Of a stretch of 29,173 bases of DNA, positions 3,315 to 26,436 are shown one piece after another (positions within the stretch are counted from its first letter, which is position 1; every line of letters starts with the position of its first letter). The notes under the pieces are model-generated. The model made no database searches and was not told the origin of the DNA. It saw only the letters and a program-made list of their open reading frames with translations. This DNA comes from Acrasis kona (taxonomy: Eukaryota > Heterolobosea > Eutetramitea > Acrasida > Acrasidae). Both the position numbers and the translations under genes were made by a program. Location: assembly GCA_026419775.2 (NCBI GenBank), contig JAOPGA020001103.1, positions 1 through 29,173 on the forward strand, given 5' to 3'.

Positions 3315-4615
3315 TTACATTTGCATTATCTCTTTTCTCTTTGCCTTCTCAAGGATCACCTTTTTGATCTCTTCCCATGTCTCTGTGACGGACTTGTTGT
3401 CAATACTGCTTGTATATAAAATACTTTTGATGGGATTATCATTTGATTTGTTGATGAACTCCTTTGTGATGTAATCTTTAGCTTTTTCAAAATCGTTTCC
3501 TGCACTGTATTCGGGGAAAGTTGCCCACAAGTCCTTAGTCTTAATCTTCTCAGCCAAAATGTCTATTTTGTTAAACACAACTATTACCGAACATCCTAGA
3601 AGGTAGGGACTTTGAACGTCTCTTTCGAATGCCTCCATAGCATCAGCCATTGTTGTTCTCTTATCTACTTTTTGATCAAAATCAGACAGAGATATAACAT
3701 AAATCATAATGTCTAGTTGATCAGCTGCTGCAGTGTGACTGTCCTCAAGCATGTAGTTCGTTTTTTCTCTAATGATAAAGTTAAGTTAATAATGAATGTC
3801 GACATTACCTCTCCATCAAGATAACATCTCTATCTTTTATAACCAATTTCTCATTTACATTGTCCGGTCCTTCGACTCTAAATCTGAACATGTCTTCTTG
3901 TGAGGCTGAATAATTATTCTCATTGTATTTTGTAGCGTTTTGGAAGAAGTAGGGTGCTGAGTCGTTGATATTGAACTCGTGTCTCTTTTGCTCCCAAGTT
4001 CTCTGTACGTTCTTATCCTCCCATAGTTTCACTACTCTGTTTGTAAACTCTTCATCCCATTGATAGTTCTTTGAATCTGTTCTTTCCATAATGTACAAAG
4101 CGGTCTTCAGATTCTCATCAAGTGTATAGGCAGCCCTTATACGATCATAGTCGTTAACGAAAGATCTCAAATTTGCAATAATAAATTTCCTGATTTCGGG
4201 CATGGTGTTAGCACATTCATTTAAGGTGTATGCTGCTTTCCCCTCAATGGATTTGATATGTCTACCTAAGCTTGAGTTAATACAAATGCGATCCAAAAGT
4301 GTAATTACGTAGTGTTGACTTTCCACAATTTTCAGCGCCGGCAAATAACACACGAATGGGCTCTAGTCTTGCAGGCGTAAGATCTTTTCTTCTAAAACTA
4401 ACGTGTGATATATCCTCTAGAATATCCACATTAGCCATGCTATTCATCATCCCCCTCTTTGGATGTGCTTTTGCGTCAGATTTGCTACCAGCGTCAACCT
4501 TTGGCTCTAGAGGTTTGGGCTCCACTTTGTCAACAACCGGTGGTTTCTTAGAGAAATCATCAAAGATATCACCTCCATTGATGCTCTTGAACATTCCACT
4601 CTTTCCTTTAGTCAT
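3315..4615 (-). CDS. Divergent heterotrimeric G-protein alpha subunit
   Basis: Exons 4615-4309, 4265-3809 and 3768-3315, joined by GT-AG introns of 43 nt (4266-4308) and 40 nt (3769-3808), encode 405 residues. The P-loop is GAENCGKST (93-101). The helical domain is recognisable by LWEDKNVQRTW and EFNINDSAPYF (182-209), hallmark G-alpha sequences. G4 is FNKID (320-324) and G5 is TSSID (374-378). Two key parts are degenerate. Switch I reads RVEGPD where RVKTTG is usual, so the Mg-binding Thr is absent. Switch II reads DVILMER (249-255) where DVGGQR is usual, so the catalytic Gln is absent. There is no N-terminal MGxxxS myristoylation signal; instead a ~90-residue charged Lys/Pro extension precedes the GTPase domain. 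An in-frame ATG exists at 4714, but the 4615 start gives the more protein-like sequence. The product probably acts at a membrane, but how it attaches is not visible. Its stop lies 41 nt before the start of the AFG2-like gene. Confidence 0.9.
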
Positions 4616-4873: not shown

Positions 4874-6901
4874 TTAATTAAAGTTGAATGTCCCCAACTT
4901 CTCATCAGTTTCGCTTAGCTTTCCGTATTTAGAGGTAAATACATCAACTTTGCCATCCTTGCCATCCTTGACCACGACACTAGTATCACTTGGAACAGTA
5001 ACTGTGGCCTTCTTTCCATCTCTCTCCATTTCTACATTTACGCTTTGTACTCCGTACATACCAGCATACTTGTACTCATCATGGTCAGTTCCACCATTAG
5101 CCTTGATATTCCTTCCTTGGAACATTTCTTTACCCTTTCCTCCGTTGTACGTCATCGTCGTCTTCAAATCACCTCCAGACAAGTTCTTGATGTATGTGTT
5201 ATCAGTACTGACGCGGTTTGGTACCAACATTAACAAGGCATTAGTAATTTGACCAAGTGGTGGTGGTAGTACATTAGCAATACCTCCAATGACTGCTTTG
5301 GCTGCTGCGATACCCTTTTCTTGTGGACTTCTAGCAGTGATGATATCTTGTAATCCTCCAACTAGTCCACCTACTGCTCCTCCAAGTGCCTTACCAACTG
5401 TATTGCCCACCATCTTCGCTACTTGACCGCCCACCATTTTCTCCAATTGATTAGCAGCGATCTTTCCTCCCTTCTTTGCAACATAGTCACCAACTTTACC
5501 GAGCATCTTATCCATTCCGTCTTTGCCGACTTTGCTCAAGATCTTATCATAGTTATCGCCTAGCTTCTTCTTGATTTCTTCAGCTTTTTGTTTTTGTTGC
5601 TCTGACACCATTAAGTTCTCTAATTGTACTGGCTTGTCGCTCTTTTTCTTTTCCTCGTCTTTCTTCTTCTTATCTTCTACTGCCTTCTTGGCTGCTTTTG
5701 TGGCCTCATCCTTCGCTTTATTTGTCAGTTTCTTCACGCCCGCATCCAACAACTTCTTCGTGAGCTTCTTGACAGCTTCTTTGGAAAATCCATTTTTAAT
5801 CATTTTTGCTGCTTTATCCAACACAGATTTGGTAATTGCTTTGAATCCCTTGTTGAAGCTGCTAGCAGATTTTTTAGATGCAGATTTCATCGCCAAGCGA
5901 CCTATCTTTAATAGATTCTTAGGAATATTCAACTTCTTTAGTGCTTTGTTTGCGTTTTTCTTGTTAGATAGTGACTTGGAAAACTTGCTCATTTTGGAGA
6001 TAAAATTCTTCATGTTAGCTTTCAATGCCTTAGCTGCTTTCATTTTGCGATTCTTTTCGATGGCTTTGATGGCCTTTTGCAAAGAAGAAATTGCTTTGAA
6101 AGCGCCATTCTTTCTAGATAGAATATTGGCAAGTGCCTTATTAATCTTATTGCCAATCTTCTTTAAAGCCTTTGAAATGTTCTTCTTTGGTTTGTTGTGC
6201 TTCTTATTTTGGCCTTGGTGCTTCTTGTTGTGCTTCTTATTATGGTGCTTCTTGTTATGGTGCTTCTTGTTGTTGTGCTTCTTGTTATGATGCTTCTTGT
6301 TGTGATGCTTCTTGTTGTTGTGCTTCTTGTTATGGTGCTTCTTATTGTGATGCTTCTTGTTGTGATGCTTCTTGTTATGATGCTTCTTGTTATGATGCTT
6401 CTTGTTGTGGTGCTTATCTAAGCGATTTTTGTGTTGTTTCTTATTGTGATGCTTCTTGCCTTTATTGCGGTTATTGGGTTGTTTCTTTTTATGTTTCTTT
6501 TCAGAGCGATTCTTGCTGTGTTGCCTCTTGTTCTTGTTGTGGTTTTTATGCTTATGAGATGGGTGTTTGCGTTGAATACCGTAGATATAAGGTCTTTTAG
6601 GTACGAAGAGTGGCTTCCTATGTTGTTTGTTGTTGTGACGTTTTGAGTTATTAGAATTACTGCGACTGTTGCTGAAAGCGGGTTTCTTTTGGTGGTTCGA
6701 TTGGTTTTGGCGCTTTGGAGGTGGACGATGTTTTGGAGGTGGGTTGTGTTTGAGTTTTGGTACTGGCTGTTGCTTTGGAGCCGGATTACTTTTAGGTTTT
6801 GGAGCTGGTGGTGAAGGCTTCGCTTTAGTAGCTGCTTTTCCTGTCACCAAAAACAAGATGACAAACAACAACAGCAACAGCAACAGCACTCTTGAACTCA
6901 T
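4874..6901 (-). CDS. Secreted, strongly basic His/Asn/Lys-repeat protein with glycine-zipper segment
   Basis: A single exon of 675 residues. Residues 1-22 form a signal peptide (MSSR, then a run of Leu, ending VTGKA). Residues 25-60 are Pro/Lys-rich. Residues ~60-160 are rich in Asn, His, Lys and Arg. Residues 164-228 are a tandem array of about twelve HHNKK or HNNKK pentads. Residues ~240-430 are Lys/Ala-rich and predicted helical (repeated NKALKKL-like and KAIxKA-like patterns). Next comes a segment rich in small residues (GGQVAKMVGNTVGKAL, then GGAVGGLVGGL) that resembles a glycine zipper or membrane-inserting helix. The C-terminal ~110 residues are less repetitive, with Gly/Thr/Val strands (KKATVTVPSDTSVVVKDG). 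I recognise no family. Plausible roles are metal, nucleic-acid or polyanion binding in a wall, vesicle or cyst; membrane activity is only suggested by the Gly-rich segment. The whole frame stays open despite extreme composition, which supports it being a real gene. Confidence 0.82.
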   Translation of the reverse strand: MSSRVLLLLLLLFVILFLVTGKAATKAKPSPPAPKPKSNPAPKQQPVPKLKHNPPPKHRPPPKRQNQSNHQKKPAFSNSRSNSNNSKRHNNKQHRKPLFVPKRPYIYGIQRKHPSHKHKNHNKNKRQHSKNRSEKKHKKKQPNNRNKGKKHHNKKQHKNRLDKHHNKKHHNKKHHNKKHHNKKHHNKKHHNKKHNNKKHHNKKHHNKKHNNKKHHNKKHHNKKHNKKHQGQNKKHNKPKKNISKALKKIGNKINKALANILSRKNGAFKAISSLQKAIKAIEKNRKMKAAKALKANMKNFISKMSKFSKSLSNKKNANKALKKLNIPKNLLKIGRLAMKSASKKSASSFNKGFKAITKSVLDKAAKMIKNGFSKEAVKKLTKKLLDAGVKKLTNKAKDEATKAAKKAVEDKKKKDEEKKKSDKPVQLENLMVSEQQKQKAEEIKKKLGDNYDKILSKVGKDGMDKMLGKVGDYVAKKGGKIAANQLEKMVGGQVAKMVGNTVGKALGGAVGGLVGGLQDIITARSPQEKGIAAAKAVIGGIANVLPPPLGQITNALLMLVPNRVSTDNTYIKNLSGGDLKTTMTYNGGKGKEMFQGRNIKANGGTDHDEYKYAGMYGVQSVNVEMERDGKKATVTVPSDTSVVVKDGKDGKVDVFTSKYGKLSETDEKLGTFNFN
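6233..6412 (-). repeat. Tandem 15-bp repeats encoding HHNKK/HNNKK pentapeptides
   Basis: About twelve in-frame 15-bp units (plus-strand form resembling TTGTTATGGTGCTTC) with silent and His/Asn differences between copies. The period is a multiple of three, so copy-number change keeps the frame. The units encode residues 164-223 of the basic secreted protein. Confidence 0.93.
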
Positions 6902-7144
6902 TATTTAATTGTTAGTAGCCGTAGATACCGTACTTCTATTTTGGGTCAATATTATTCTAAATGGCTCAACTACTGTAGAACTAACATTGTAAAGGATTAA
7001 TTACCAGTCCTATTTCAGAAAATTTTCCTAGTTTTTGGATAAAATTGAACACGTGTGATGTGACAAATGACAAGGAAACTTTTAAGGATGTCATAAATAA
7101 TGACAATTATTGATGTTTGATGAAAACTGCCCAAAACTTTTTCA
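6902..7144. promoter_or_regulatory. Shared divergent promoter region
   Basis: A 243-bp gap between two diverging genes that both begin with signal peptides: the basic repeat protein (minus) and the hydrolase-7TM-RGS protein (plus). No gene is visible in it. I see no clear TATA box or repeated operator, so the call rests on position only. Confidence 0.55.
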
Positions 7145-9960
7145 ATGAGAGCACTGTGCATCACACTCTTTATTGTCTTATTTGTCAGAGGACAGCTCAA
7201 CGTTACATGGAATGAGTGTCCGATTTTTAATAGTTTGGGGTATAAAGATATTTTATTCAATGCAAAGTCGAAGGACGTCATATCAAAGTGTGGAACAGCT
7301 GCATATCCTTATGACTATAGTGAACATGAATACTTTTCAAATACAATCAAAGCATATTTATCACCTTCACCGGTAGGTAATGTTGTTCTTATAGGAGAAT
7401 CATTAATAGTGAGTTCGACTTTATTCAAATATAACAAATATAGGGGGTAAGTGGGGAGGGAATCGAAACCATTGGATTTCAACTTTTTAAAATATTGAAC
7501 GGAACTCACAGCGTGTACATGCCATCTATTAGAGGTTCTACCTCTGCATCGCTTGTAGACCCTTACTCGTGCACCGATTATGAGTTCTTGGACCACATAC
7601 CTTCTTCATGCTCTGCTAAAAACACATCTTGGATTAGCGTTGACAACATGGCTCAAGACCTAATATCCTTCACAAACCAAATTAGGAGGGACCAACCCAA
7701 TATCCCCATCACACTTTATGGACGTAGTTTCGGAAGTTACATTGCTAACAGAGCTTTAAGCATTGATTCAACGATTTGTGATTCATTAGTGTTTGAGTCC
7801 GCATGGGGGTAAGTATTGAAAGCTTCAATTATTTAACAATTCAGACCTCACACAAACGCTTCCGAATGGGATTCGAACCGCGATATTGTTGCATCTAAGA
7901 TACTAGGAATTTTCGACAACAACACATTACCCGAATATAAAAAGAATACAGACACACCTGCTTTGAATGCGTACTCTAATTTTCTAATTGCACAATTCGA
8001 TTATTTTTGTGGACATCCTCAAGAATCAATGTACGATCTAAAATACATGTCTCTTGCATCGTTATTCGACGAAACATTAAGACCAAAGTTCTTGGGTTTG
8101 CTTTCATTAATAGACAAATGTGATTACAATAGTTATGGTAACCTTCTATCGTACATCCCAACAAGTCAAGACAGTCTTTTTTCGGCATATGTAAAGAAAA
8201 CAACTCTTATGAATACGGGAGTCGTCACCAATAATGTTCTCATATCAGAGCTAATTGACATCAATAAAGCATCGTCCGTCTTTAAGAATAAAATATCCTC
8301 TCAAAGCACAAATTATGCCATCGGAAAGTTAATAGGATCCGGATGGACCATTTCAGCACAAAGTAAATATCGTTACCAAGCGGCAGTTAATTTTAGTGGG
8401 CCTGTTTTGATATTAAATGGTGACTTGGATCCACGATCAAGCACTTCTAGTGCAAAATGGTTTTCTTCTCAGTTTAACAATAGTAGGATCTTTATAATGC
8501 CACAAACAATGAGCGATTGTGTTTCCTACTCATTATATGACGGAGATTTGAATACGACTTGCGGTGCTAATATCATAAAGCAGTTTATTGGTTGTAATAA
8601 TTGCACAATCAACTCTAGTTGTATAGCAAGCATGAGAGGAATGAATTTCAAGGGTAATGCACTGACCCAGTTTCTTTTCAAGGATAGTGTATGGAATTCA
8701 TACTACATAGCCCCAAATGTGTCTTCTATAGTCATCTCTGTTGTTTTTTGTTGTAATTTTATTTTTGTATGTGTTGTAACAATATGTTTGATTGTTTTAA
8801 GAAAGTATCGCAGGGTGACCTCTAGGGGATTTGTGCCATACTTTGGTTTGTTGTTTGTTGTAATCTTTTCTGCAGATTTGACGATATTACTCGCTGCTCA
8901 GAATGTGAGAATATCTGATTTGATCGGGGTTATGCACTCCGTCAGCTATTCCGTACTACTTTGCTTCTGCTATGCTATTCTAGTCCAATCAGTGAGATAT
9001 TATTTACTAAGGGTAATGTACAGACAAATGTCTAATACGAGAAATAGAAATATGATTGCCCGTCTGATGGCTAATCAGTTCGTATTTGTTATTTCGTCCA
9101 TCGTGTTATTCTCCACATCCGTCATATATGCGCTGGCGATCTATTATGCTGATGGCTTGAGGTATACTGGTTTATCGTTTACGATCGTAAAGTACTCATT
9201 TTTTGCTGCTTGCGGCATATTGGGTCTTCTTGCGGCAATTATGGCTGTGTTTGATTTCATAAGCGAATTAATTTTGAATAAAGGAAACTTGAGAAAGGTG
9301 TTAATTATCAACGATCCGTTACATTTCAGAGCGGACGCAATTATCTTGATTCCAATCATTCCATCGGGAATTTTTGGTTATTTGTATCGATTTCAAACTT
9401 ATCATGTCCTTCTTGAGATGTTCTTCCTGCTTGTCATAATGTATTCTGGTGGTACTGTTGTTATATCATGCGTGGTTGACTATTTTATGAGCAGGTATGG
9501 AAAACAAACAATCCTAGTTAGTGACGATGACTTTACTGGAGATAACACTAAGTTAAGAGACGCCATATTAACGCAAGAAGGAGCTGTGGATATATTCAGG
9601 AAATACTGCATAAACGAGTTTAGTCTTGAGAATTTACTTGGTCTTCAAGAGCTTCAAATTTTGATATCCATGGAGGAAGTTAGTGATGAACGAATGAAAA
9701 TATTTGAACAAGAATTTATTGATAGAAATGCACCAATGCAGTTGAATGTACCATCAGACGTATTTAAGCTTTTTGTTGCTGCTCTTCAGCCAAATTCCAC
9801 ACAAGAGCATAGAAAAACAGCATTGAAAAAAGTACAAGACATTACATTGATGAACGTAATGGATACATTCGAACGATTCAAAAATACAAACGGATACAAA
9901 GAGGCTGTGAATATTATTAAGAGTGAGAATTCAATAAAAAGAAACGTCGGAATTGAGTGA
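7145..9960 (+). CDS. Receptor-like fusion: TAP-type alpha/beta-hydrolase ectodomain, seven membrane helices, RGS domain
   Basis: Exons 7145-7446, 7512-7808 and 7845-9960 (GT-AG introns of 65 and 36 nt) give 904 residues. Residues 1-16 are a signal peptide. Residues ~20-470 are an alpha/beta-hydrolase of the tripeptidyl-aminopeptidase-like type: nucleophile elbow YGRSFGSY (Ser173), acid loop NGDLDPRSS (Asp395) and a Cys-bearing tail (CGANIIKQFIGC, then SSC) typical of TAP-like C termini. I see no His where the third triad residue is expected (MPQTMSDC, ~418-425). Seven hydrophobic helices follow at about 493-518, 529-551, 559-587, 610-635, 649-672, 697-715 and 721-747. Residues ~769-884 match the RGS fold: FRKYCINEFSLENLLGLQEL, then QEFIDRNAPMQLNVPSDVF and DTFERFKNTNGYKEAV. 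RGS domains speed GTP hydrolysis by G-alpha. The signal peptide plus seven helices put the hydrolase outside and the RGS inside. The ORF has no frameshift. The domain combination is one I do not know as described. Confidence 0.88.
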
Positions 9961-10788: not shown

Positions 10789-13700
10789 ATGGTAGTGCAT
10801 AATTATTACGATACTGTATTCGCGCTCAGAGGAGCAGAGCATTCCAGTGACCCTGATGGGCTTATTCAAGATTTTGTGGAATTCTTCACTAGCTCTGAGG
10901 TCGGGAAAAAATTCCATTTAAACATTAAATGGGATCTATTGTATTCCAATACACAATCATCAGACATCAAAAAAGAATTGAAGGAGATGGATGTCGGTCG
11001 AACATTGGTTATGTTTATTAGAGCGCAAAACTCAGGATTATTTATGACCAAGCTGGAGAACGAAAACCTCCTCGTATCAGCGTTCGAAGCATCATTACCC
11101 ATGAGAGCGATAATGAGTGCACCCAGTTCCATCAGAGTTAAGTGTCCAGGGGCCGCAGTAGAAGTTGACCATGCACATCTCACCAGTAGTTCTTTTTTAA
11201 AAGAATTTTCCAAACACGTTGAGACTCTGTCGAACAACAAACTTGATGATACTTCGTCAAAGTTTTTTAAATCAGGTGTAAGTTATCATCACATTGTATA
11301 GCTAAACATATAATAGGAAAAGAACAGTGATGCCAAAGATGTCGTGGATCCAAAATATGTAACAACGTGGCTTCTTTCAGCGATTTCAGGGAATTCTGGT
11401 ATGTCCGAGGCGGCAGTTAGAGTAACAAAAACTATCAAGGACTTTGTCGAATCCAACAAACGTCGAGATCCTACGTGGTTTGTGATCAAAGTACCCCTAC
11501 AAACAAGTTTAATTAGAAGGTATGGGGAGGAAGAGGGCTATGTCATCTACAAGTTGACCATAATCGAATTTCTTGTATGCTCGTGCATAAAGTATTTTAC
11601 AATACACCACGAAAAAAGAAGCGTTTCTGACGTTCTCTTCCAAATGATTAAAAAAATCGCAAATAAAATCAAAAAATTAGGATCTTTTCCATTAGAAGCG
11701 GGAAGTGAATTTTCCAACTTTGTAGTACAAGCAATACAAAAACATGTCGTTGTTATTGAGAAAGTGCGCGCTGTTATAGATGCAAATTGGGAGGCGATAC
11801 AAAACAATTATCAAGAAAGAAGGACAATAAAATTTAAAGCTCCTGACTCTGGTGCCCAAGATTGTTATCTCAAGTTTGTTGCTCTCCAAAAATTTATCTG
11901 TTCTTTATCGGAGCCAACTGATTACCGTACCAAAATTCCTTTTCGACCTCATATCTCTGGTTCTGAGAACTTTTTATTTGAATACGAACTCAAATTGCCG
12001 TCAACGCCTATTGATCAATCCAATGAAATCCTGGGAGGTGTATTAGATTTTCAATCATTTGAAAAATACTTCAAAGGAGCAACTGAACAGTATTCGAACA
12101 ATCCCGAAGCATGGAGTAATGCCCTCCTCACAATGTTCCATGCTGCAGTCATCAAGGACTCAATGTGTGTCAATGCTCATCCGATATTAAAACAACATAA
12201 GACTGGTCTTGATATTAGCATACTGAGCGATCTCCTATTGCCGTTCAAACATCAGATGCAAATTCTTGAAGAGATTTGTAATTATGTAACCAAGCGAGAT
12301 AAAAAGGCTAAATTTCCTTCATTGACGGACAGTCTTACCATAGACGATGAAGATTCATTTGCAACGAGGTTTTGTGAACAGAATAGTAGTATGATTCAAT
12401 ATAAAAAAATGATTCAAGATAAAAGCGAGCAGCTGCGCAAGGCGAATGAAGATGCTGTTATCGAACAAAAGGTTGTGTATAACCAGTTAATTAGAAGATC
12501 TCAAGAGATTCCATGTGAAAGAATATTGCACATGATGAGAAGAAATTGTGAGAGCTGTAGCTGCAGAAGAAATGCTGAATCTATGAAGGGGTCTGTATAT
12601 GAGTGGCCATTACCAAAAGAGGATAATAAGATCAACTCGGTAATTTTTGAATTAAGAATGCCAAAAGACCTTGCAGAGTTAAGAGACATGATATATCTGG
12701 TAATGTTTGAAGCTTGTCAATAAAGGATGAAACAAAATGTCCTAGTGTGTCGTTGTTATTACAAGAATACGAACCGCTTAAAAGATATTACGAAGGTCAT
12801 CAAAAGTATGCTGTAATGGCCAGTAAGACAAGGCCTCAAATGAAGTCAGCACGTATTACTGAACATATTTCCCAATTCAGCAGGCCATGTGGGATGACTT
12901 TCCATATGGCAGATCAAAGTAAAAAAGAATTCATCGTCAACCAGGAACCTTCTGTGTCTGGAAGATGTATTATGAATATTTCTGATCCTAGTTTCCGTTC
13001 TTTACAATGGATGGTTGATGGTTTCCATACCAACAATGAAGTCATAGCCAAGCAAAATACTTGTCCTCGTGAAATGGCTACATCCGAATTCATTGCTTTT
13101 GGAGATGTCAGAGTCAACAAGAGAATACAATGGGATAATATAATAATCGCCCTCGAATCTCGCTCGATCAGCTTAAGTAACCAAGCATCATATGCATTGT
13201 TTTGTCAAGCGATATGGCAGGCAGGCTCTACGGGTAGTAATTGGAAGAGACAACCTCATGAACAAATCGGTGGCCCAAAGAATGAAATCTTGTTGACAAT
13301 TCTTAATGAAATCACAGATAGGTTTGAAACAAATTGGAAGGAATGTGATGTTATGCTCATTGTTGTTACAATTACATGTCGATTGTTATGCCTGAGCGAG
13401 ACTAAGGAAGACCAGAAGAAATGTGTTGAATTAATAAAAAAATGTAGAGGATGTATCCTTAAATGGATCGAAATCATCACTAACATGTTGCAAGAAATAT
13501 CTTCTGTTCAGTTCGAAGATATTGCTGATCGTAGAAATGATCTTTGTAAAATTGCTGCTTGCGGTGTCATCACTTACCATGTTGGCTCCGATTATCTTCC
13601 GTTAGTTGCAAATGATGGCCAAGACCTAGTAGATTTTTTGCTCATTTCTTCCATTTTAATCCAAAATAAACATAAAATGGAAAAGAATTTCCTTCATAGA

Positions 13701-16700
13701 GTACAGCAATCATCATTAGTTATGCAAAAGTATATGCACAATCACATAAAATCAAATCCCAGAATCTTGGATTGGTATGTGCAACAGATGTGGGCACCAT
13801 CAAAGAAAGGCACAATCCAAGGTTGGAAGAGAGAAGGAGTTTGGTACCAAACTACTTTTCAATCTGAAACGTCAACTAATTTGTTGATAAACACTCTAGA
13901 CGGCGACTTTTTAGTTAATGGTGATAGATTAGCGCGTCTTAGCGACCGTATCACGAACCATGATGATTACAAGAGGACCTTTAGCTCTGAGATTGTATTT
14001 GAAGTGTTACCAAGTAACAAACCTGATACCCAGATAACAAAACATTACTATCACCAGTCCAAACTTTCATTCAAGTTGACAGCAAACAACAAATTGAGAA
14101 TGTCGGAGGTATACGACGACAAAAGAGTTCTTCATTTTGTTTCCCATACTCTATTGAAAGATGAACTTCCTCATCATATGGTTTACGACTATAGTCATTG
14201 GTACGATGAACAAAAAGAAGTCGTTGAATTCAGACCCTTAAGTACATCTATATTGCAAGAGCCTCAGTCTTCTTTCACATTAAATGTAAAAGATAAGAAC
14301 CGCATTCATCTGTTTGACAATCGTCTTCCCAGTTTGTGGTTAGTTGACATCAACAGTCCATCTTTTGGAACGGTAGTAAAGAATTTGTTTGACAGATTAG
14401 AATTAAGGCAGCACGTTCATGTGTATTATGATATTGAAAATGAATGTATTCAAATTAACTTGCCCAGAATGGGTTTGCGATTTACAGTTGATCATGACCG
14501 TGATGTTATCAAATCAAGAGAGTTTGATGGTATGTTTGTTAGCCCTAATCAATCACTTGGTACTCTAATTGGCCTAACCAATGGTCTTGTTCTTGTTGAT
14601 AAAATTGGTAATAAAAGATTGATTGTTCCTCACGGACACATTGATAGAGCCACGAGTAATTACGGCCATCAAGAAACAATCATTAGGATGCCGCTGGAAA
14701 CTGAAAATCTTTGTTATTATGTTTATGAAGTTGATGATATCTTAAAACAGTTAAAAGCTGATTCGAGCAATAGCTGGCTCATGTTGGTAAACTTGTATGC
14801 ATCAACATCCTCTTTCACTCCCGATAAATTTAATGGATTATGCGGTTATGAATCGGCACTGCAGCTACTGCAATCTCCTTTATGTCATTCATCGCAGCCT
14901 CTTGATATAACAACCTTCGAGTTGTTGACTGAAATTATTAATTGTTCACCACATATAGAGGAAGCAAAGAGCGGCCAATCAATTACTATCGTCTGGCCCA
15001 GTCATCTACCCTCCATGGCTGCTTTAGATGTATACAAGGCGTTAGTAAACTGGATCATCCATGATAGTAATAAATTAAGTAAACTGTTCCCAGACAGAGA
15101 ACCAGCTCAGCTCTTGGAGTATTCAGAAAATGCTCACGTTAAAGCCTACTGGGGAAGTTATTATTTGTATGGTGTAGATGGCCACTTACAATCCATTCAC
15201 GAATCTACAATCATTGGTAAACCTCCAAAAACCACTAAACACATTCCTCGACACTCATTCTTGACGGAGCACGGTGATGTCGCTAACATATCTGAAATCA
15301 TGTTGCGTGGTAGTTGTTTCACTTTTGATCCAGACAGTCTTAACCACATCTATAATTGGTTGTTAGAAAAGCCACAATGTAATAGTCTGGTGTTAGATCA
15401 TACATTGAAAGGTGACATTCTATCATGGGCGGAGTTAGATCCAAAACAAGACTTCTTATCATTATATCACTTGACGATAGAAACTAAGAATCAGTACATG
15501 CTTTGCTTCTGTTTGAGTTTGTTATCATTTAGAAACAACTCTTTTAAACAGTACTTGACGTCTCTGGCAATTATGGCAATTTATTCTGACACAGCATTGT
15601 CCATTAGTACAGACATTGACGTTATATATTATCCGCAAGAAGGTTACCAATTCGATCGTTCGAAAATGGCTAGAATCATTCAAAATTGTGCAAAGGAAAA
15701 GCCACATGGTTATCATTCATCACCACAGAAATTTCTCGAAACAGAATTGCAATTTGCATATCGATGTCAGACGGACTTCCAAAGTAATGTCGATGCATTA
15801 AGTTCCCAATTACTCGAGTTTTTAGCATCAATGAATCAGAGAAAATATAATGATACTATCTCCTTAGACGACTCTTACGAAGACTACTTTGATGTTTCCC
15901 AACTACAAAACTCTGTTTCAAATCAATTGAAACTATGGTACAACAATAAATATTTGTTTGATTTCTTTACAAATTACGAAGAAGAGTTAGAGTCCTTACA
16001 ACCACAATTGGAACTGGAACAAGAAGAGTACGAAACAAATTGGACGTTCGATAGAACGTGTGATGCACCAAGGCAATCGTCAGATGAAATCATGGTTGAT
16101 TTGTGTTTAACGCAACAAAAAGATTCTATATCAATATTTGATGCAAAAATACTCTTCGAAATGTGTAGCGAAGAAGAGAAGATTTCGAACAATCTCAAAA
16201 AGTCTATTATGGACGAAGGTGAGATAGATGACTTGTTTGTCGATTCAGAATGTGAAGTTGTAAACGACTACAAAAACAACTTGAAGGAGAGTTGGAGCGC
16301 TTATATGCAAAAACTTCAAAAACCAGATTGGTTTAATACAGACATTACAAAAGGTCTTGACAGAGAAATTAAAATGAAGAAGGATCAAGTCGAGAGGGAC
16401 ATACAATCAATTATTGAAATCATTCAAGAAAGTTGGTTTAAATCATCAAGTTCAGATGCAATAACTGCCGCACTACAAAAAGCCGATTTATGGCCAAAGT
16501 TCACCATAAGAAATATTCTTCGTTTGATTGTTTCGCCAGATCATAATCAATCAAGTGACATTATGACGTACATTGGTGCTTTGGGTGTTCTTCTTACAAA
16601 GAAACAACGATACAGTAGACTTCTGCAACACATTGCACTAAACGACAAAAATGCAATCAAAAAGGAATTATTCTATCAAGGACACGTCAATTGGGTACCA

Positions 16701-19700
16701 AAGGACTATCCAGAGTGGTTGCTCTTGGAGATTGAGAATAACTTCTTGGTAAGACCCACTCAAGCAACTGTTGCACTGGAGATGTTGAAGAGCGAATCAA
16801 ATATGACTCTTCAATTAAACATGGGAGAAGGCAAAACATCAGTTATTGTTCCATTGTTGGCATCTTCGGTGGCTGACGGTAAAACATTGGCTCGTGTTGT
16901 GGTGCTCAAACCACTCTTAAAAGTTAACTTTGAGTCATTACAACAAAAACTTGGAGGGATTTTACAACGTAGAATCTATTTGATACCTTTCCAAAGAGAT
17001 TTTGAATTCGATCAATCTGATTTGGATCAAATGCTAGAAATATTTGAAGAATGTTGCACTCGTAGAGGTGTTATCATGACTCTACAAGAGTACATGTTAT
17101 CTTTTCAATTGATGGTACTCGATAGAGCAGAGCAACCATACTCACACTCTCTGTTATCCATACAAAAGTACTTGGATTATACCACTAGAGACATTCTTGA
17201 TGAATCAGATGAGATTCTTCATTACAAGTATCAATTGGTATACACGGTCGGTGGTCAAAATGCTATCCATGGTGATGAACTACGTTGGACCGTCATTCAA
17301 CAAGTTCTACAAATCATAAAAAACAAAGCCAGCATATTTGCAGATAAATTCCCAAATGATGTTGAGTACATTGAATCTCAACATGGGTTTGATTATCCCC
17401 TATTAAGAACCATAGACCATGAACCAGGCAAGGCATATCAGTGGCTATGTGAAATGATCATTAATGAGATCATTAAAGGCGATAGCACAAGCCATAACAT
17501 TAAACTACCAGAAGTCCATTCTAGTTCTCATTCGACCGTGATTAACTTTGTTGTAAAAGAAGACATCGATCAACAAACATTTGGCAAAGTCGAAGAAATG
17601 ATGGGTGGAAGAGACACATACGGATATCTCACTCTACTTATCATAAGAGGTTTGTTGGGTTGTAAAATCTTGTTCCATTGTATGGGCAAGAGATGGAGGG
17701 TTAACTATGGTGTCAATCCCAAAATTAGCCGACGGATGGCAGTTCCCTTTAGAGCGAAGGACCTTGCCTCTGATAGAACTGAATTTGGACACTCTGACGT
17801 GGCCATTTTGTTCACTTTGTTAAGTTACTACTACTCTGGAATTTCATTACAACAAATTGAAGAGTGTTTCAAAATTCTAGAAGGTTCTTCTTATAGAGAC
17901 CAAGAGTACATACGTTGGACATCGTCCTACAATGTGCCACCATCCATAAGTTCGTTCGATAGCATCAATCTACTTGATCATGACCAGCGTCACTTGATAC
18001 ATCAGTACATGTCAAAAAACACTTCGGTAATTAATTATTGGTTATCACACGCAGTGTTCAGAAAGGAAGCCAAACAGTTTGAAAAAAAGATTGTAACCTC
18101 TGGATGGGATTTGGCAAAAACCAAAGAGTTGTCTTCTCGCTCCACAATCGGATTCAGCGGAACAAATGATACTCGATTGTTGTTACCTACATCTATCCAA
18201 CAACGAGATTTAGATGAATTGAAGTCAACGAATGCAATGGTGATTCATTATTTGCTTAGCCACAATGGTTATGAACCATTGCAAACCAACACACCGGCTC
18301 TCACCCTATTACAAACCATTTCCGACTCTGGAATCAGAATTCTACTGGATGTAGGAGCATTGATGCTTGAATTAAACAATCAGTCCGTGGCTACCAATTG
18401 GTTGTTCATATCTCCACCGGACATTCAAGCAGCTGTTTATTTTGATGCACAAGATCAATTAGTGGTTGAAAGTCGTTCAGGATTGATTGAAAAACTATCC
18501 ACATCTCCTTATCAACGTAATCTTGAAAAGTGTGTAATCTACCTGGACGACGCTCATTGCAGAGGTACTGATTTGAAGTTCCCACCTAATGCAACAGCAG
18601 CAGTTACCTTGGGTAAAGGAATTACCAAGGATAAGTTTGTACAAGCTTGTATGAGAATGAGATTATTGGGACATGGTCAAAACGTGCAGTTTTATGCCAG
18701 TAACGAAGTTCATATTCAAATAACTAATATGGTCGAAGGTTCAATTCCAAATGAATTCTCTACAAAAGCAGTCATCAAATGGGTCAACTCCAACACCATC
18801 AAAGCAACGCTAGATGGATTTGTTCAATTCGCACTCCAAGGAATCGGTTATCAGAAAAGAAAAGATATTTGGAACCACATAGTCGTCGCCAAAACACAAT
18901 CCCACATTACATCATTATGTAAGCTATATACCGAACCCAGTGCTCCCAAGTTATACATGCTCTATGGATGTGAGAGACATAGTGACACAGTGCCCAACAT
19001 TATTAACAATCAATTGAATGCTATACACAAGAACGTCATTGACAAGTCAGAGTTTATAAAAATGTGTAGACCTGTCACCAGTCACTGTAAGCGATATGTT
19101 TCTAAACAAGAAGGATATGCTCAAATACTCAACGAAGAACAAGAAAGAGAGTTGGAAGCAGAAACTGAAAATGAGCAACAAATTATCAGACCAAAGGTTG
19201 AAAAACCACACAAACATGGAGTTGACCAGAGATTGCTACAACTATTATCCCCAAAGATGAGAGTTCATACCTTTGACCCAATATCCACCGACATTGAAAA
19301 CACAAGTTTCGAAAAGTATTTTGAGCAAGAAGGTTGGAGTCATAAAATTACATGTAGTAGAGATTTTCAAAAAGTAGTGGAGAAAAATACAGGAAAGAGT
19401 ACAGATTACTTAAGGCCCATCAAATACTTGATAACATACTACGACACCGAGTTCCGCAAACTTATATTGATAAGTGATTATGAGGCCAACGAACTATTAC
19501 CCTACTTTACTCAAGATACTCACAATGCTCAGATTCGATTACAAATGTATAGCCCTCGATTAAGACCTGATCAAAGAATTCTAATTGACATGCCAGAGCT
19601 GCAACTACCACTGGTGAAACCGACACAGGAATCCTCACAGGAAACGACATCAAGGAGTCACGTACCACCTAACATATTGGCACAGTTATCAATGTTGTCT

Positions 19701-20339
19701 GGAAACCAGTACTTTTCTGACAACGATGAAAAAGAAAAGGTGTGCGACTTTTTAGGATTTTGTTTGAGACCATGGACAGAAGAGCAACAAAAAGCATTTG
19801 ATGAGAATAAAATTCACTCGACTGGGTTTATTCCTCCTGAATATCGAGTCGAACTTGGATCGAGATGTAATTTCAAATGCAATCCCACCCCATTCTTCCA
19901 AGAGTACATTCTAGCTCGCACCAGATGTCAGAGTTTTTCTGGTTCGCATGTTGGTAGTATTTTCATTAATGCTACAAGGCGTGACGACGAAAAGAACCAT
20001 GGTAATGAAAAATTAGAAAGACAAATAGAAGAGCTAAAAGAGAAATGTAGGTTGTACGAGGACCAACGAGTCATATCAGAGTTTTCAAAGGACGTTTGTA
20101 TCAAGGTCAAGGTAGAAGGAAAGGAGGATTCTTTTGAGTATTATGTCAATGAAGATGATAGGTTATCGCTTGAAGCATTCCACAGGACTATCAAGAATTA
20201 TCTTATCGATGATGAGTTGATGGATAAGGATCAAAAGATTGAAAAGATTCTAACAAGTGGTCAAAGTAAAGTAGTGAAGAGCACACTTAAAAGAATTAAG
20301 ATGGACGATAGCTTCACAATATACATAGAAAAAGCATAG
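10789..20339 (+). CDS. Giant DUF6606-DUF3638-DUF3645 protein with SF2/SecA-like ATPase core
   Basis: Exons 10789-11277 and 11317 to ~12699, then 12726-20339, about 3160 residues. The first intron is 39 nt. The second join is unclear (see findings): either a 26-nt intron at 12700-12725 or a one-base frameshift. The N-terminal DUF6606 part carries MFIRAQNSGLF, then KCPGAAVEVD. The core has Walker A NMGEGKTSVI (Lys1994), an acidic box DILDESDEIL (2113-2122), and RGTDLKFP (2570) followed by QACMRMRLLGHGQ (2597), which resemble helicase motifs V and VI. A Glu-rich segment (EQERELEAETENEQQ) and IIRPKVEKPHKHG are typical of this family before its C-terminal third. The last ~110 residues hold a coiled coil (KLERQIEELKEKCRLYE) and a small beta-rich tail. 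Function in the family is unknown; nucleotide-driven remodelling is inferred from the motifs. Start: first in-frame ATG after the TATA box. Length is in the family's normal range as I recall it (~3000). Confidence 0.9.
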
Positions 20340-23324: not shown

Positions 23325-26106
23325 TCATGGACTCATTTCTTGATATCCTATAGCTTCGACATCGATTCTTTTCTTAAACTCTTCCGCAACTGCTTTGAAA
23401 GTCTCTTCATTAGCGATTGTGCCTGTACGTCCGTTCGCTTTCTGGTATTCAACTTGTTCCACCTCATATCCAACTTGATTTTTCAAAAATTTCAATAATT
23501 TTGAGAAAGATGTCGCATCGACGTCACGATCACGTCCATTCACCACAACGCACACTTTGAGGGTATGTTGCTGATTACTCTCCTCTTCATCAATATTTAT
23601 TAAAAGGGGAACTGATTCTTCGGTAACCAGGAATCAATGGAGCCATCAAATCGATGAAATCGTCAGTGACAGTAGTACTGGTTCTAACACCGGCGTCACA
23701 AACTTTTTTAAAGGAATCTATTGCTTGTTCGCCCATCCACAATGTTAGTCCTTCGCCACTTATAATGATGACCTCCATTCGGGATGGAACATCCAAATAT
23801 GGAACATTCAAAGTGCAGTTCTGCATTTTGTTCTTGTTTTGCTCGGACATGTCGTCATCACTCATTTCTTCATCGATCGACATCTCATCATCATCCTCTC
23901 GATCGTTGTTATCATAATAGTCTGCATCACGTTTATCATCTTCTTCTTCCCAGAACGAGCAATATTTTCCGCAATCGTTATTATGACACGAATTGCATAC
24001 GAAATCTTTGTAATCTTCGACTTTATAGTCTCTGATTGAAAGACATTCTAGATGGAACCAATCGTTACAATTATCGCACTGAATCATTGGTTTGTCATCA
24101 CAATACACTTCCTTACATACACAGTACCTTGCTTCAGGATCAATAATTTCGACTTTGGTTTGACTGTCACTGATGCGATTCATTTCCTTTGTGGTGAACT
24201 TGTATAATCCTGAGGATATGACCAATGACTTTTTATATCCAATCGCATTTTGAATGTATTTTGTGACAGAGTTGGCTGCCACAATTAAGCAGACTCGACA
24301 ATCATCATTCGCTTGGAGCCATACAATTGCTTTGTTTACTTCTTCTTGAATAGTGGGAGCCCCAACATTGTGTGCGTTCTTTGATGCGATACAAAGGCAT
24401 AGATGAGATGAGATTTTAAAAAACACATCTGATGAACCAGATTGTGGAGCAGGAATCCCGACACATCCAGAGGGTAGCATGCTTTCAAGTAATCGAGTGA
24501 ACTGAGCAGAGTTGACGTTAACTTTCCATGGATGGACCTCTAATACTTTTCGCTCTTGTGTTGAGATATGTCTTTTTCGAACTAATATAAGCTTGGGTAA
24601 TAGTTTGATGAATTTTTGGCCACTACGCAATTTTACCTTCTTTTCCGCCAACATCTTGGACTCTACCAGCAACTCATCGAATAGATGGATCCAGTTTGGT
24701 GGGTTTCCAACGTCGATACACATCATCATCTTGAGCAAAAGCGCGTACAACAGACCGCGCTCTAACAAAGCGCCCCTTTCAGTAACATCACCACAAAGAA
24801 GCGAATCTGCCAGTCCCATAACTACATCCAACTTGTTCGCTTTGTTCTGTTCTTTAAATTTTCTCACGGCGTATTTGGGCATGGTGATTCGAATTTGATT
24901 AGATGTGGCTGGCTTCACATAAATGTTACCAACTCCCAATAGGCGCAAGAGTGGTATTCTGCGGTCTTGAAACGTAAAGCAAAAACCATGAGGAAAATGT
25001 ATATTCATTGACGCTAGCAAGATGAGCATGTGGTTCATCTCTTTGCACAAACCATATTTATCGGCTAGACTTATCTCTCTTCTACAAAATTGTAAGATGT
25101 GCTCATATATTACGTCATCAAATGCCTCGACTATCCTTTGTTGGCTATTGAGTAATATACCACGACTGTCGTTCAATAGGTACATTAAACATTCTCTAAC
25201 CAGTCTTGGGACTCCTGCCGTGCGGTTGTACAATGTCTCTACGAAATATCTCACGTCCTGTTTTGATAGTTTACAATCGTTATGCAAAGCTTGTTCGATT
25301 GTTTCTGAACGAGATGGCGATCTTGTGGTACGTTGAATGATGAAAAGTATGTGCTCCGAACTTAATGGATCAAGGAAAATGGGGTACGGTGGACTGGGTG
25401 AACGTATTATTTTAATCATATTCAGGCCAATCATAGAGAAAGCTGTGGATTTTGAGGTTGCAATGTGAAAAAAGTTGTCCGATTTGAAAGTAGGTTGTAA
25501 GTCTAGCCAAAAGTTGTAAAACATTCGCATTTCATCTTGAAACGACATGGCTTGATTTGTGTAAAATTTGCACAAGCACTCCACCTCGTCCCAGTGAACG
25601 AAGAATGATAACTCTTTGTAATTCTCCTCTACTTGTCGAACAACATCCAAAATGGATTGATACGGACCGAAGGTAATTTTTTTCTTGATTGATATGCTAT
25701 TCACGAGAACGTCCGCAAGAGCTTTGCTTCGTTGCATTGCTTCGTTCGTTCTGAACTGCGGAACTTGCACTTGATTTAATGAGATCTCCAAATGAACTGC
25801 TTTTTTTAGGTTCTCCACCCTTCTTACAGTCCTTTCGTCCGTCGTATGCTGGGTTATCTTATCCCAGAGTTTGTTCTTTGTAAGTATAGCTCTCATTTTA
25901 CGTATAAATGTAGTTTTCCCTGAACCACTGTATTGTTCAATAAACACAAAAACCCCATGATCAAATCGAAAAGAGGATACAAGTGCCTTTAACGCTTTGA
26001 AAGCTTGATCCTCACGGTTCACAAACAGGAGTTCGAATTCAGGAGAATTTGGGTCTCTTTCTTCAATGTACGAAATACTATTAGATATAAATGGTTCACT
26101 GACCAT
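23325..26106 (-). CDS. ATPase-nuclease-PHD protein (Crinkler/RHS-like), frameshifted near the C terminus
   Basis: A long open frame of 838 residues starts at ATG 26106. Residues ~10-350 are a P-loop ATPase: Walker A YSGSGKTT (59-66), Walker B FFVHWDE (Asp173-Glu174). Residues ~440-640 look like a PD-(D/E)xK nuclease of the Crinkler/RHS class: Glu449 in ERGALLERGL, Asp560 in GSSDVFF, Lys576 in CIASKN. Residues 661-708 are a C4HC3 PHD finger (YCVCK, IQCDNCNDWFHLEC, FVCNSC), which in other proteins reads histone H3 tails. A long acidic stretch (718-757) follows. The frame stops at 23590, but the next frame is open and protein-like across the stop (EESVPLLINIDEEESN) and continues to TGA at 23325, adding about 100 residues. 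A one-base shift near 23615-23630 separates the two. No introns are seen. The gene may be intact apart from a sequencing error, recently damaged, or decoded by frameshifting. Its role (host defence, effector or selfish-element control) is not determined. Confidence 0.75.
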
Positions 26107-26436
26107 GATGGCAAGATCTTACTCTTGAGATTACTTTCTTTTCTTTTTGGAGGCTTTATGATTCACGTCACTCATGTTCAAAGCTGATTCTTTGGGGAGG
26201 GTTTTAAGTCACTCATGTTCAAAGCCGAAATTGAAGTTAAAGTTAACCTTTACAACGACCACAGAAATTAGGTGGTTGACCTGGACACGTGTGTGTTTTT
26301 GTGGTCGTGCGTGTGGTTCTTTAGCCTTGAAATTATTTAATTGGTTGAAAAATAATAGCAGAACAACAGGACATACGAATATTAATCAACAATGTAGACC
26401 ACCTCACCAACATAATAAAAACAAACTAATATAACA
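26107..26436. promoter_or_regulatory. Divergent promoter with direct and inverted repeats and a CACGTG box
   Basis: A 330-bp gap between the nuclease-PHD gene (minus) and the gene at 26437 (plus). It holds an 18-bp direct repeat, GTCACTCATGTTCAAAGC, at 26167-26184 and 26208-26225. It also holds a 9-bp inverted repeat, ACGACCACA (26255-26263) with TGTGGTCGT (26300-26308), which flanks the palindrome ACACGTGT (26285-26292) containing a CACGTG E-box/G-box. No ORF of note. Confidence 0.6.

Follow-up and report, generated by a model that had tools for sequence, protein, structure and literature searches.

The locus considered here raises the question of whether a single gene can join a hydrolase-like ectodomain to a seven-transmembrane (7TM) part and an RGS domain and, if so, what such a protein does. 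It lies in a 29,173-nucleotide stretch of DNA, referred to as the window, from Acrasis kona, which is described as an amoeba with aggregative multicellularity (PMC11589745). The window is contig C551 of the genome searched (37.35 Mb, 1,021 contigs), and a public protein search gave NCBI's protein for the gene as AKO1_004376, of 902 amino acids; this NCBI model is labelled P0001 below. AKO1_004376 has, in order and within one gene, a hydrophobic leader, a TAP/S33-like hydrolase ectodomain, seven transmembrane segments and an RGS domain. We regard it as probable that the protein is a 7TM RGS receptor whose catalytically degenerate TAP/S33-like ectodomain acts as a pseudo-hydrolase ligand sensor tuning the RGS domain. 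The initial annotation had recognised the leader, the hydrolase and its elbow, the 7TM part and the RGS domain; its first intron was misplaced, and the incompleteness of the catalytic triad had gone unremarked.

The revised gene model encodes 914 residues with no internal stops and is made up as follows.

7145..7408, plus strand: exon 1, residues 1-88, with the hydrophobic leader (about residues 1-22) and the start of the ectodomain, from translation and hydropathy
7409..7443, plus strand: intron 1, 35 nt, GTGAGT..TATAG, on the basis of NCBI P0002 and P0003 and the paralogue models
7444..7808, plus strand: exon 2, residues 89-209 plus two bases, with the degraded GGPG region and the nucleophile elbow
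7809..7844, plus strand: intron 2, 36 nt, GTAAGT..TTCAG, as initially annotated
7845..9960, plus strand: exon 3, the remaining hydrolase, the 7TM part, the RGS domain and the stop, in a single uninterrupted frame

Two other placements of the first intron were rejected because the paralogues contradict both. An intron at 7447-7511, as first annotated, drops VSGEGIETIGFQLFKILNGTHS and counts some of the real intron as coding sequence; in the alignment, an equivalent of VSGEGIETIGFQLFKILNGTHS is present in all eight other paralogues and, in the region after GGPG, in stand-alone hydrolases. The intron implied by P0001, at 7373-7443, omits VGNVVLIGESLI, and the equivalent residues are retained in NCBI's own paralogue models P0002 and P0003. 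Our paralogue models, which have intron 1 at the same site, came from a splice aligner guided by the window model, so that it is P0002 and P0003 that supply independent evidence for this intron. Introns in the A. kona genome are reported to range from 9 to 95 bp (PMC11589745).

That two adjacent genes or an assembly chimera have been mistaken for one is extremely improbable and was rejected: no point in its support was found, a single open exon of 2,116 bases spans both junctions, the order is repeated on eight other contigs, and NCBI also predicts a single protein. The predicted gene is thus, as had been claimed, a hydrolase-7TM-RGS fusion in one spliced frame rather than a set of separate genes. 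Nine full-length members of 907-934 amino acids share this domain order (the window protein, C333, C719, C466, C888, C530, C362, C237 and C36); the models for C466 (at its start), C888, C362 and C36 include doubtful short introns, and the motifs counted below lie elsewhere. The search of the A. kona genome with P0001 gave 32 matches. A tenth copy, C241, matches C719 apart from ten mismatches as far as the RGS part, within which the two sequences diverge, and for that reason it was left out of the nine-member counts, whilst C150 holds only scattered fragments (L022, L030, L035) that are 80-83% like the window protein. To judge by the C241 near copy (L012) and the C150 fragments, duplication and decay within the family seem to be continuing. 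Among the matches listed, NCBI proteins appeared for three members, P0001, P0002 and P0003, the last two being shorter than the revised models. No hydrolase fusion outside A. kona was found among the matches listed in the public protein searches, which worked by shared 5-residue words and may miss Naegleria and others. Literature searches of limited scope found no described hydrolase-7TM-RGS protein, in keeping with what had first been stated; in the portions of text available, the word 'RGS' occurs 0 times in PMC11589745 and the word 'hydrolase' 0 times in PMC12716839.

The N-terminus has the hydrophobic leader that was first proposed as a signal peptide, with a family-averaged hydropathy peak at residues 4-22. 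The similarity of the following region to alpha/beta-hydrolases also stands, the window protein scoring slightly below the Pfam cut-offs for Hydrolase_4 (24.5 bits; cut-off 27) and Abhydrolase_1 (24.4 bits; cut-off 25.8). Abhydrolase_1 is passed by C530 (28.6 bits) and C466 (26.4 bits), and the long exon of C530 passes PF08386 (30.0 bits; cut-off 21), which bears out the description as TAP-like. The GxSxG-type elbow is GRSFGS, at residues 181-186. The window ectodomain is homologous to the stand-alone A. kona hydrolase C308 (E=1e-20 over residues 51-513 of P0001). Against solved structures, the family profile matched the esterase 2wtm (E 0.00054) at positions 307-349 only, C308 had no match at 0.01 and the stand-alone hydrolase C71 gave weak rows only (best E 0.099). 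The nine ectodomains (first 530 residues) were aligned with five stand-alone A. kona hydrolases, a sixth, C564, being excluded as a near copy of C148 (the C564 frame also shows VVH). The alignment places the active-site positions as follows.

7726..7728, plus strand: Ser183 of GRSFGS, the nucleophile position, Ser in five and Gly in four of the nine paralogues
8428..8430, plus strand: Asp405 (NGDLDP), the triad Asp position, kept in 9/9
8512..8514, plus strand: Ser433, at the catalytic His slot of intact hydrolases, His in 0/9 paralogues

The window protein therefore has the nucleophile Ser and the catalytic Asp and is without the catalytic His and the GGPG motif, its GGPG region reading GESLIGVSGEG against LQGGPGAGGEA in C308. 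In the five stand-alone hydrolases, GGPG and His are each present in four and Ser and Asp in all, C226 having DGPG and no His. On these counts, with Ser, Asp and His together in 4/5 stand-alone proteins, the initial description of the ectodomain as peptidase-like is not supported. As aligned, the ectodomain appears to be an alpha/beta-hydrolase fold that has lost its His, and the family tree allows between one and three changes between Ser and Gly. C362 has one His eight residues past the catalytic slot. Another, His212, is retained in six of the nine paralogues and is located beyond the next strand after the elbow; judging from the fold, this is not where an alpha/beta-hydrolase would carry its His. 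The ectodomain is probably not an enzyme, residual or altered chemistry being possible given the Ser in five members and the Asp in nine.

Those same residues, together with His212 and the presence of ordinary hydrolases of similar kind in the A. kona genome, are what would favour a membrane-bound hydrolase or acyltransferase that is still active, perhaps in a non-canonical way, and that is anchored and regulated by its 7TM-RGS part, processing a surface substrate and reporting the product. However, the empty His slot, the loss of Ser from four members and the loss of GGPG make this a quite unlikely reading, as does the finding that the window ectodomain is about equally like the Gly members (30-41% identity) and the more distant Ser members (36-47%).

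Mean pairwise identity amongst the nine members is 38% in the ectodomain, 31% in the 7TM part and 30% in the RGS part, so the ectodomain is the best conserved. Between the window gene and C333, dN/dS (NG86) is about 0.10 for the ectodomain (dN 0.24, dS 2.31), about 0.12 for the 7TM part and about 0.23 for the RGS part, with dS values of 1.4-2.3 that are near saturation; when C719 is the partner, dS exceeds what can be measured in two of the three parts. For the window-C333 pair, these estimates indicate that constraint is acting on all three parts. The best conservation and the low dN/dS imply that the ectodomain still has a use, which is probably other than that of the enzyme from which it descends. 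Eight ectodomain Cys are retained in all nine paralogues, and in every member the ectodomain has a higher density of sequons than the rest of the protein.

The membrane part comes next.

8707..9489, plus strand: seven hydrophobic segments, at about residues 498-534, 538-564, 564-599, 612-650, 652-689, 701-728 and 723-758

The seven helices of the initial annotation are recovered between residues 498 and 758 in the hydropathy averaged over the nine paralogues, where eight peaks follow the leader and the overlapping pair at 564-593 and 579-599 was merged to give seven. No GPCR was matched when the family profile was compared with solved structures at E up to 1, further rows with E above 0.6 being taken as chance. 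Mean K+R counts are 4.7, 4.2 and 2.1 for inner loops 1-3 and 0.8, 0.3 and 0.7 for the outer loops. These charges, except those of inner loop 3, which is net acidic (K+R 2.1, D+E 3.0), and the ectodomain sequons predict an N-terminus outside and a C-terminus, with its RGS domain, in the cytosol.

The 7TM-RGS half is homologous to P0005 along its whole length (P0001 488-884, E=1e-17 in a single comparison). P0005 and P0004 are metagenome proteins that differ from the window protein in having a GPS motif, before the 7TM-RGS part, and a different N-terminus in place of the hydrolase. Thus, the 7TM and RGS parts form one module that is found with differing ectodomains. In the window protein, a scan with E allowed up to 10 detected no GPS (PF01825) next to the first transmembrane segment. 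The position of the GPS in P0004 and P0005 contrasts with the account in the available text of PMC12716839, where the GAIN/7TM linkage is placed in holozoans.

At the C-terminus are the following.

9562..9903, plus strand: RGS domain, residues 783-896, from Pfam PF00615 and PDB RGS chains
9616..9633, plus strand: EFSLEN motif, invariant in 9/9
9862..9879, plus strand: DTFERF motif, DTxxRF in 9/9

An RGS domain had been claimed for about residues 769-884, and PF00615 locates one at residues 783-896 of the revised model with 26.7 bits against a cut-off of 23.9. PDB RGS chains were matched with a best E of 0.00056 by the window domain singly and of 4.3e-06 by the family profile, many chains being matched. 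Five paralogue RGS parts were scored on Pfam; C530 and C333 exceed the cut-off, and C888 (22.2 bits), C237 (21.0 bits, its row cut at an intron) and C466 (16.9 bits) fall below it. The Asn of the next motif after EFSLEN is also retained in all nine paralogues. We take the EFSLEN, Asn and DTxxRF positions to be the G-alpha contact residues of RGS4-type domains, and their retention throughout the family is consistent with GAP activity of the RGS domain. Since the RGS motifs are invariant and the domain order recurs in all nine members, the fusion is not a product of chance.

According to the genome paper, A. kona has a wealth of heterotrimeric G-protein regulators (PMC11589745). A hand count gave 28 G-alpha loci above cut-off among the listed rows, near copies included; GPS matches number 40, and at least 150 RGS matches are listed from 202 candidates, the window's own RGS not being among those listed. 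One G-alpha gene lies in the window itself.

3315-4615, minus strand: G-alpha gene, exons 4615-4309, 4265-3809 and 3768-3315, PF00503 at 177.7 bits

It has a P-loop, GAENCGKST, and NKID, and in an alignment to a G-alpha-i1 chain MERREKTN stands where switch II would have DVGGQR; it is a divergent and perhaps non-hydrolysing G-alpha. Its position, 2.5 kb away on the opposite strand, was rejected as evidence of pairing because it lacks DVGGQR and because, among the matches listed, only 3/28 G-alpha loci have an RGS within 10 kb (C604, C693 and C321), against about 2.2 expected from density, in a hand count that left aside the window's own pair.

The six long-frame RGS genes covered, from a set of 20, show two or three hydrophobic segments instead of seven. 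Two or three segments are seen in the eight RGS frames L059-L064, L002 and L005, with a large stretch that separates or precedes them and, ahead of the RGS domain, a long inner region; in L059-L064 we take this inner region to look cyclase-like, and L064 gave RGS alone on Pfam. Elsewhere in the window, the minus strand has a 676-amino-acid frame at 4877-6904 that combines a hydrophobic leader with long repeats rich in Lys, His and Asn (KKHHNKKH) and that Pfam did not match at 0.01. Also on this strand are two adjacent frames at 931-2884 with AAA ATPase domains, perhaps one gene of the peroxin or Cdc48 type, and an 842-amino-acid frame at 23593-26118 with a P-loop-like GSGKTT and a PHD finger. 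On the plus strand, two long adjacent frames at 11320-20339, with DUF6606 in one and DUF3638 and DUF3645 in the other, are probably one very large protein.

In the neuroligins, a dead hydrolase domain serves as a protein-protein docking surface, and the Acrasis family could likewise be adhesion or cell-recognition receptors that dock during aggregation, with the RGS domain as readout. The fact that an aggregating amoeba has nine such members, divergent from one another, the GPS motifs of related 7TM-RGS proteins and the eight invariant ectodomain Cys fit this idea, which we nevertheless consider unlikely, as Pfam found neither an adhesion repeat nor a GPS in the window protein.

A receptor with a pseudo-hydrolase ligand sensor is the reading preferred here, since retention of the RGS motifs and of the ectodomain, with loss of the enzyme residues, fits a ligand-binding sensor. 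The former substrate pocket would now bind a ligand (a peptide, a lipid or a surface partner) with no turnover. Binding would be relayed via the helix bundle to alter how accessible the RGS domain is or how it is oriented, and this shift would change the rate of GTP hydrolysis on a G-alpha, perhaps a self-activating one. The scheme assumes that A. kona possesses self-activating G-alphas and that the ligand changes GAP activity. In plants and Naegleria fowleri, some G-alphas are reported to load GTP unaided, with RGS proteins setting the OFF-rate (PMC9283941), so that a receptor bearing its own RGS domain need not be an exchange factor in order to signal. With this family, A. kona would have several ways of controlling the G-protein OFF-rate from outside. 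As first suggested, the likeliest function of the protein would be to sense something outside the cell and to turn a G protein off. The initial interpretation holds for the one-gene architecture and, within the searches made, for the lack of a prior description; its peptidase-like ectodomain is not supported, and its RGS1-type background is too narrow.

More tentatively, these proteins may stand for a type of pseudo-enzyme receptor in which the pocket of a dead hydrolase senses and gates the protein's own RGS domain, the signal setting the OFF-rate and not the ON-rate, and which has expanded and diversified in an amoeba whose aggregates form fruiting bodies, perhaps for the detection of aggregation or prey signals. 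Few receptors are, to our knowledge, known to control a G protein via GTP hydrolysis. Nine related proteins whose sensor derives from an enzyme, with natural Ser/Gly variants at the old active site, provide a testable set and offer candidate receptors for a protist with aggregative multicellularity. The family also adds a likely independent case of the evolution of a hydrolase into a receptor through loss of His.

The comparison with known systems can begin in A. kona itself, where the stand-alone TAP/S33-like hydrolases C308, C71 and C224 have an ectodomain homologous to that of the fusion, including the C-terminal Cys segment. They differ from the fusion in possessing GGPG and His along with Ser and Asp, in a C-terminal hydrophobic stretch as judged by eye and in having no RGS in frame. 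Plant AtRGS1, compared by description, is similar in having a 7TM part joined to an RGS domain, but is not known to have a large ectodomain. It is reported to speed GTP hydrolysis on a self-activating G-alpha (PMC9283941). The plant RGS1-type background first given was correct in that 7TM-RGS proteins are known, and too narrow, as N. fowleri is described as having 28 of them, along with 79 other RGS proteins (PMC9283941). Several of these have EGF-like, lectin/carbohydrate-binding or GPS ectodomains; N. fowleri G-alphas, two of which are self-activating, engage 7TM-RGS proteins and their GTP hydrolysis is accelerated (PMC9283941). These heterolobosean proteins, compared by description, share the ectodomain-7TM-RGS order and the C-terminal RGS domain with the window protein, but a hydrolase is not mentioned in the available text of PMC9283941. 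For the ectodomain, a precedent is GID1, the gibberellin receptor, an alpha/beta-hydrolase turned receptor that is suggested to have lost its active-site His (PMC3531792). Unlike the Acrasis family, GID1 is a plant protein, is kin to the hormone-sensitive lipases and signals via DELLA/SCF. Thus, receptors with the order ectodomain-7TM-RGS were already known, and what the Acrasis family appears to add is an ectodomain made from a degenerate hydrolase.
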